64,000 bases of DNA from Streptomyces halstedii (GTDB taxonomy: Bacteria > Actinomycetota > Actinomycetes > Streptomycetales > Streptomycetaceae), in assembly GCA_000720535.1 (NCBI GenBank), contig JOAZ01000007.1, positions 186,001 through 250,000 of the forward strand, written 5' to 3'. Numbering within the stretch: position 1 is the stretch's first letter; each line of letters begins with the position of its first letter. Shown piece by piece: positions 49,314 through 50,818 of the stretch. Made by a program: the position numbers and the translations under genes. The notes beneath the pieces are model-generated. The model was given only the letters and a program-made list of their open reading frames with translations, did no database searches and had not been told where the DNA came from.

Positions 49314-50147
49314 TCAGTGGGCCGCCGCCTCGAAGAGGGTGTGCATCGCGCGGCGCAGCTCCCCGATGTCCCGTACGGGATCGGGGAATTCGAAGCGTGC
49401 GTCGAAGCAGGCCGCCTCGCTCTCGATGAACCGGACCCGCAGGCCGAAGCGGTCCAGCGCGACCGGCACCGCGCGCGGCGCGCCCGTCGCCCGGCCGTTC
49501 GCGGTCCGCTCACCGAGCAGGGTGGCGAGGGTGGCCATCTGCTCGCCGTGGGCGGCGTGCAGATGCTGGAGCAGCTCCGCCTCATGGGTGACCAGCGGAT
49601 CCGCGACGGCGTCCCGGAAGGCGTCCGGTCCGACCATCTCCGCGCCCCAGAGGTCGTCGACGGAGGCCTCACCGAACTCCAGCCGGAGCGTCATCCGGCC
49701 GGGTCCCGCGAGCCCCGGAACGGCGGTGAGCCACCCGGTGACCCTGGCCCGCCCCCGGATCCGGTGCGGGACGGAGACCGGAGCCACGTCGGTGAGTTCC
49801 AGCGCCGCGGTCAGCTCGTCGCCCTGGGCGTGGGTGGCGGCCCGCACGGCGGGGGAGCCGGCGGCGAAGCCGAGGAACAGATCCCCGTCCGGACCGACCG
49901 CCCGGCTGTCCGGCATGAGCTGCACCGGGTGGACCACCTGGAGCCCTGGTACGAGCAGCACGGACGAGCAGGTACTCTGTACGAGAGTTCGTGTGCGCTC
50001 GGCTGCTGACGGCAGCCGGGTGGTTTCTGGCCCGCTGGGACGCGGCTGACCACGATCAGATCGGCCTTCCGTCATCGCGGCGCCTTCGTGTGCGCCGTCG
50101 CTGTCTGTGCTGTCCGTGACGTGAGTGGTGTTCCCAGGGCGAGACAT
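49314..50147 (-). CDS. DUF2470-containing protein (HugZ-like, heme/iron related)
   Basis: 277 residues from the ATG at 50147 (AAGGAG site). The N-terminal part (about 50-170) resembles the split-barrel flavin/heme-binding fold; the C-terminus (about 185-277) is DUF2470, with HEAELLQHLHAAHGEQMATLA and LDRFGLRVRF, found at the end of heme-utilisation proteins of the HugZ group. A near-consensus iron box lies 15 bases upstream of the start, so iron-dependent repression is likely. Whether it binds or degrades heme is unproven. Confidence 0.78.
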   Translation of the reverse strand: MSRPGNTTHVTDSTDSDGAHEGAAMTEGRSDRGQPRPSGPETTRLPSAAERTRTLVQSTCSSVLLVPGLQVVHPVQLMPDSRAVGPDGDLFLGFAAGSPAVRAATHAQGDELTAALELTDVAPVSVPHRIRGRARVTGWLTAVPGLAGPGRMTLRLEFGEASVDDLWGAEMVGPDAFRDAVADPLVTHEAELLQHLHAAHGEQMATLATLLGERTANGRATGAPRAVPVALDRFGLRVRFIESEAACFDARFEFPDPVRDIGELRRAMHTLFEAAAH

Positions 50148-50161
50148 GCGATCTCCTTGAG

Positions 50162-50180
50162 TAAGGTAAGCCTAACCTAA
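50162..50180. promoter_or_regulatory. DtxR/DmdR-type iron box
   Basis: The 19 bases TAAGGTAAGCCTAACCTAA match the DtxR palindrome TTAGGTTAGSCTAACCTAA at 17 of 19 positions. The box lies between the divergent DUF2470 gene (start 50147) and rpsD (start 50204), overlapping the likely -10 region (TAGGCT on the minus strand) of the former. Iron-loaded DmdR should repress at least the DUF2470 gene. Confidence 0.82.
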
Positions 50181-50203
50181 CCTACAACGGAGGTCTGGAG
50201 AAC

Positions 50204-50818
50204 GTGCCTAACCAGTCGCGTCCCAAGGTCAAGAAGTCGCGTGCCCTCGGCATCGCCCTGACGCCGAAGGCTGTCAAGTACTTCGAGGCGCGCCCCTACC
50301 CGCCGGGCGAGCACGGCCGTGGCCGCAAGCAGAACTCGGACTACAAGGTCCGTCTGCTGGAGAAGCAGCGCCTGCGCGCCCAGTACGACATCAGCGAGCG
50401 CCAGATGGCGCGCGCCTACGACCGCGCCCGTAAGGCCGAGGGCAAGACGGGCGAGGCGCTGGTCGTCGAGCTGGAGCGCCGCCTCGACGCCCTGGTCCTG
50501 CGTTCGGGCATCGCCCGCACCATCTACCAGGCCCGTCAGATGGTCGTCCACGGCCACATCGAGGTCAACGGCGGCAAGGTCGACAAGCCGTCCTTCCGCG
50601 TGCGTCCCGACGACGTCGTGCAGGTCCGCGAGCGCAGCCGCTCCAAGGTCCCCTTCCAGGTGGCCCGCGAGGGTGGTTACGACACCGACGGCGAGACGCC
50701 GCGCTACCTCCAGGTGAACCTGAAGGCCCTGGCCTTCCGCCTGGACCGTGACCCGAACCGCAAGGAAATTCCGGTCATCTGCGACGAGCAGCTCGTCGTC
50801 GAGTACTACGCCCGCTGA
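50204..50818 (+). CDS. rpsD: 30S ribosomal protein S4
   Basis: 204 residues from GTG 50204. [28 protein letters not shown], then the S4 RNA-binding domain [34 protein letters not shown]. The N-terminus lacks the CxxC zinc ribbon seen in some S4 proteins, so it is the zinc-free type. It stands outside any ribosomal-protein operon, in front of a convergent regulator gene, with the iron box in its upstream region. Confidence 0.96.

Follow-up and report, generated by a model that had tools for sequence, protein, structure and literature searches.

The 19-bp iron box between rpsD and a divergent DUF2470 gene in the 64,000-nucleotide stretch of Streptomyces halstedii DNA analysed here (the window) appears to be a relic of an old switch of ribosomal protein S4, and the S4 that was exchanged probably holds an iron-sulfur cluster. 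Taken together, the sequence patterns make it fairly likely that the best overall explanation is an iron-controlled swap between an S4 with four N-terminal cysteines (C+) and the cysteine-free form found in the window (C-), with the box in the window now serving chiefly the DUF2470 gene. For Actinomycetes more broadly, we lean towards the view that many of them exchange a [4Fe-4S] S4 for a cluster-free S4 in iron starvation, together with a gene for heme-iron recovery. The reading is built on the site itself, its pattern of conservation, a cysteine motif, and a repressor gene, all of which were observed directly.

The box occupies positions 50162 to 50180 of the window (no strand assigned) and reads TAAGGTAAGCCTAACCTAA. 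Compared with TTAGGTTAGGCTAACCTAA, the 19-bp palindromic DtxR/DmdR iron-box consensus, it has two mismatches on the minus strand (17/19) and three on the plus strand (16/19), and from this fit we predict that it is the operator at which a DtxR/DmdR1-type iron repressor would bind. The whole assembly (7.74 Mb) contains 12 distinct sites with at most three mismatches, and the box is one of seven with at most two (7.7 Mb). Pfam scans of the proteins beside 10 of these 12 sites assigned nine to families: five are Peripla_BP_2 proteins, and the other four are a siderophore-interacting protein, an esterase, a Lys/Orn monooxygenase, and a paralogue of the DUF2470 gene. The tenth frame matched no family. 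The paralogue, located outside the window, has its own 17/19 iron box directly 5' of it (G000:C7:81221-81239; L213). One PF02742 (DtxR-type) gene is present in the genome; queried as a stretch only, it gave a partial match to the NCBIfam actinobacterial DtxR model, below the whole-protein cut-off. A PF02742 repressor was also found in 11 of 12 other genomes checked, the exception being G472 (see below). A scan of positions 49950 to 50260 for sigma-70-like promoters found none, and Rfam at gathering scores returned only tRNAs across the window.

The two genes flanking the box start 56 bp apart. On the plus strand, rpsD (50204 to 50818) encodes the C- form of S4 and is preceded by a Shine-Dalgarno-like GGAGG, read from the sequence at 50189 to 50193; on the minus strand, the DUF2470 gene (49314 to 50147; 277 aa; Pfam PF10615) has a Shine-Dalgarno-like AAGGAG at 50153 to 50158, also read from the sequence, and its start codon is 14 bp from the box. 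The original prediction had both starts (50147 and 50204) right, and its claim that the DUF2470 protein belongs to a heme-utilisation fold was borne out at the level of predicted fold. The AlphaFold2 model of this protein (36 sequences; mean pLDDT 84, with residues 1-28 below 50) had as its best solved Foldseek match the heme-binding MSMEG_6519 (5bnc; E 5.1e-14, TMq 0.57); next came At3g03890 (6m0a), a heme-bound protein of the chloroplast, with the Dri1 heme domain lower down. Because these best matches are heme proteins, and with a PF10615 domain on a split-barrel fold, the modelled protein can be called HugZ-like/DUF2470 at fold level; its likeness to the three heme proteins is one of predicted fold, identity to them is only 14-23%, and a heme function is predicted. 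A DUF2470 gene with a DmdR1-like motif has been reported from S. griseus in passages of PMC8914203. We regard the DUF2470 gene as the probable client of the box in the window's genome.

Within the genus sample, an S4 match was found in 60 of 61 genomes, and the DNA 5' of rpsD was read in 59 of them (G028, with no match, and G032, with the gene cut at a contig end, were left out). The box scored 15-17 of 19 in 38 of these 59 loci and at most 12 in 21, which answers the question, raised with the original prediction, of its conservation in other Streptomyces: it is present in 38 of the 59. Box and divergent DUF2470 gene, the latter detected by tblastn, agree in 57 of the 59 loci; the exceptions, L060 and L061, carry a 15/19 box 24 bp before rpsD and no DUF2470 gene, and in L061 rarA lies upstream of rpsD on the same strand.

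The N-terminus of the window's S4 contains no cysteine and so lacks the four-cysteine motif of uS4, and no second, C+ S4 was found in its genome, where the C- rpsD is the one S4. Six genomes of the genus sample do have a second S4 of the C+ kind, 45-47% identical to the C- form. In a gap-free alignment, the cysteines C9, C12, C26, and C31 of these relatives' C+ S4 match those of Thermus thermophilus uS4, on which an Fe4S4 cluster was confirmed by long-wavelength diffraction according to excerpts of PMC6555806, and sections of PMC10450194 give CxxC...CxxxxC as the spacing that classes uS4 as C+. By analogy, the actinobacterial C+ S4 would hold an iron-sulfur cluster and not zinc. An S11-like frame, recognised by eye, precedes the C+ S4 in all 19 C+ loci inspected (of 35), as in the alpha operon, and in a tree of 144 rows all copies of the C- lineage fall on one side against 11 alpha-operon S4 (SH-aLRT 100). 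C+/C- paralogue pairs were found in 65 genomes with two S4, the window's own not among them.

These two-S4 genomes came in part from an order sample (119 genomes) and a class sample (393 genomes; at most seven candidates scored per genome). The order sample added 16 two-S4 genomes of the genus, one of family code f2, and six of f3, and all 23 second copies were read. For the class sample, we re-searched the 64 genomes outside the order that had a C+ best match and at least two matches, which yielded a full-length C- copy in 36 and partial copies in two; some two-S4 genomes were possibly missed, because class genomes with a single match, C+ best, were left out of the re-search. With a box counted at 15/19 or more within 150 bp of the start, it stands before the C- gene (rpsD2) in 64 of the 65 two-S4 genomes and in 10 of 11 family codes (f1, f3, f4, f17, f18, f26, f29, f34, f37, and f45). 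The one exception is G061 (f2), which has two S4 and no iron box; about 33-56 bp before its rpsD2 start (L084) another palindrome, TTATGCGGGTAATTATCCGTATAA, was read by eye and may serve some other metal regulator as its operator. No box was found at the two partial C- copies, at any of the 35 C+ copies (best 10/19), or at any of the 20 alpha-operon C- copies read from single-S4 lineages (of 42 genomes; best 10/19). In other words, a site fitting the operator of a metal repressor accompanies the C- copy and not the C+ copy (64/65 versus 0/35), the operator at rpsD2 being assigned by its fit to the iron-box consensus.

The one-S4 genomes of the C- lineage have the box in 42 of 103 cases, this set comprising 53 genomes of the genus sample and 50 of 63 from a further set, with one-S4 genomes seen only in the order or class samples left out. 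The difference in box frequency between two-S4 and one-S4 genomes gave a Fisher p of 2.3e-16, a value that ignores kinship; a tree-aware test of C+ presence against the box, with only four independent pairs, was not significant, so the pattern within families partly reflects shared ancestry. The 1.9-Mb genome G472 (L122) yielded no PF02742 repressor. It has an 18/19 box 33 bp ahead of rpsD2, where a tRNA gene is the upstream neighbour, and a perfect 19/19 box elsewhere.

A further set of named genomes was chosen without regard to the box, by a protein search with an alignment of one C- type from which the best 80 of 180 relatives were kept (Nonomuraea, Streptosporangium, Microbispora, Planomonospora, Herbidospora, and related genera). 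In the 120 bp leading up to the start, every one of these best 80 of 180 has a box scoring 14/19 or higher (78 of them at least 15), whereas 3 of 1476 windows drawn at random from these loci reach 12/19 or better. Of the 80 genomes, 32 were checked for the two S4 forms, and all 32 contain both. Because some genomes are shared with f17 (identical contig places), the named and G-coded sets are not summed. The boxes 5' of rpsD2 in these loci (L241-L320) are tandem, with a second site of at least 12/19 in 78 of 80, mostly 15 or 20 bp further on.

The question is then which of the two neighbours the box serves. The explanation that survives best beside the S4 switch is that the box serves only the DUF2470 gene, with rpsD next to it unregulated and transcribed from a separate promoter farther upstream; we consider it unlikely overall, and it is the strong and main rival for one-S4 genomes such as the window's own. 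The genus sample had favoured the box as a property of DUF2470 alone, an account that the two-S4 survey rejected as a full explanation. When DUF2470 was scored in the loci with a profile built from 36 neighbours, the two-S4 genomes divided into 56 with DUF2470 and box, eight with the box and no DUF2470, and one with neither, and the one-S4 genomes into 42 with both and 61 with neither, the remaining cells being zero. Box (at least 15/19) and DUF2470 thus agree in all 103 one-S4 genomes, the DUF2470 paralogue of the window's genome has a box of its own, and the S. griseus gene carries the motif mentioned above (passages of PMC8914203), all of which favour DUF2470 as the only client. Against this, among genomes without DUF2470 nearby the box is present in 8 of 9 with two S4 versus 0 of 61 with one, these eight spanning four family codes, and in L089 and L090 (f3), both counted among the 56, the box comes first, then rpsD2, and then DUF2470, which shares the strand of rpsD2 and lies 48 and 27 bp past its stop. 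The cell counts imply that the box is kept where there is a DUF2470 gene or a coexisting C+ S4 and is absent where there is neither, G061 being the exception. The cut-off makes a difference in a single group, ten one-S4 f17 genomes without DUF2470, in which decayed boxes score 12-14/19. Nine f18 genomes among the 56 have a neighbour that is only remotely DUF2470-like (E 1e-5 to 1e-10), and the number of boxed two-S4 genomes without any DUF2470 is eight, or 17 if these neighbours are not taken as kin. An assignment of f18 and of L089 and L090 as lacking DUF2470, based on tblastn and on Pfam for two f18 proteins, was overturned by the profile search.

S4 was most likely an original target, because 64 of 65 two-S4 genomes have the box in front of the C- gene, eight of them without DUF2470 nearby and two with DUF2470 downstream. 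The original prediction had named the DUF2470 gene as the natural target, which holds for one-S4 genomes (all 42 that have DUF2470 also have the box, and none of the 61 that lack it do) and fails as a full account; its suggestion that iron could affect S4 through mere proximity proved too weak in view of the two-S4 genomes. In the window's genome, control of S4 may be incidental, since the presence of the box tracks DUF2470, and not S4, wherever there is a single S4. An effect of iron on S4 there is plausible given the short distance between the start codons, and its present-day size would depend on where rpsD transcription starts.

For the swap, we infer repressor binding, a response to iron, a cluster on the actinobacterial C+ S4, exchange in the ribosome, and loss of C+ as the direction of change. 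When iron is plentiful, a DtxR/DmdR1-type repressor would keep the C- rpsD2 (and DUF2470) off, and ribosomes would carry the C+ S4 of the alpha operon with its N-terminal iron-sulfur cluster. When iron is short, the repressor would release the box, rpsD2 would be expressed, and ribosomes would be built with the iron-free S4; the HugZ-like DUF2470 gene, usually divergent, would be derepressed along with it and help to reclaim heme iron. Where the C+ S4 is lost, the C- gene would have to serve under all conditions, and the box would decay unless kept by DUF2470. The window's genome would be in this C+-less state, with rpsD2 as its sole S4 and the box kept chiefly for DUF2470.

An iron counterpart of the Zur swap is, by analogy, our best reading. 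In the sections of PMC10450194 on the zinc-dependent exchange of ribosomal paralogues by Zur, a metal-binding C+ protein is likewise paired with a metal-free C- paralogue, and the C- copy has an operator fitting a metal repressor; the present system differs in its iron-box operator, in the protein (S4), and in the likely cofactor, an iron-sulfur cluster. A second alternative, which strikes us as quite improbable, accepts that rpsD2 is iron-regulated and has the C+ S4 hold zinc, so that the swap would spare no cluster and would instead alter ribosome function or give S4 another role during iron starvation. The four-cysteine site was indeed modelled with zinc in earlier Thermus structures ("Zn-finger of uS4"), but the long-wavelength data place Fe4S4 on Thermus uS4 (both from excerpts of PMC6555806), and in Actinomycetes it is an iron box that forms the control site. 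That the 19-mer is a chance match has next to no probability and is ruled out by 100 dinucleotide shuffles of the window (0 matches at three or fewer mismatches), by a reversed control pattern (0 such matches in the whole 7.7-Mb assembly), and by its conservation in the same place in ten families, which confirms the original prediction that a 17/19 match goes beyond chance.

A literature search, with supplements and most subscription papers outside its range, did not turn up any account of an S4 paralogue under iron control, or of a Zur-type swap of S4 that answers to an iron repressor. The DmdR1/DtxR/IdeR regulons described in parts of PMC12161575 share the 19-bp operator type, and the other boxes of the window's genome lie by siderophore and iron-uptake genes; 25 unique locations are given there for S. 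coelicolor DmdR1, and a term search of its main text found neither rpsD nor SCO1505 named. The only paper found to name both rpsD and DtxR is PMC524172. Its consulted sections include rpsD of C. diphtheriae in the predicted DtxR-controlled operons, where the gene lies distally in a long secY-to-truA operon predicted with the alpha-operon order, and they describe neither a second S4 nor a box directly at this gene. PMC8464063 contains no S4 or DUF2470 terms, and the passages of PMC13061897 and PMC8141631 have nothing on the subject. Ribosomal paralogue swaps are known for zinc, and the S4 case would be the iron version, giving a physiological reason for the puzzling iron-sulfur cluster of some uS4 proteins. 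If it is true, the S4 cluster is a regulated, dispensable cofactor, ribosome composition is tied to iron supply in antibiotic-producing bacteria, and C+-less Streptomyces carry the fossil of a switch. The swap predicts genomes with a working switch and others with a relic only, and is directly testable in two-S4 genera, e.g., Nonomuraea and Streptosporangium.

In the Streptomyces loci without a box, the region leading up to rpsD contains some 190 nt of strongly conserved sequence (L042:1532-1761, minus strand; also L015, L016, L032, L038, and L043-L058), which can be folded as a multi-branched structure closed by GGAG/CTCC and is possibly an S4 autoregulatory leader. Its core 23-mer occurs with at most one mismatch in 20 of 21 box-less loci and is absent (at least six mismatches) from the 38 box-bearing ones. 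Covariation is weak, with two-sided changes in 3 of 48 pairs in an alignment of 20 of the 21 loci (without L052), and four such loci scanned with Rfam gave no match. A ScbR2 site reported upstream of S. coelicolor rpsD (SCO1505), TGACAAGCCGGAAACCCAGAAAAGAGA (PMC4595836), is similar to the bases immediately preceding rpsD in L053 and the like among the box-less loci, and this likeness points to S. coelicolor as a member of that group.
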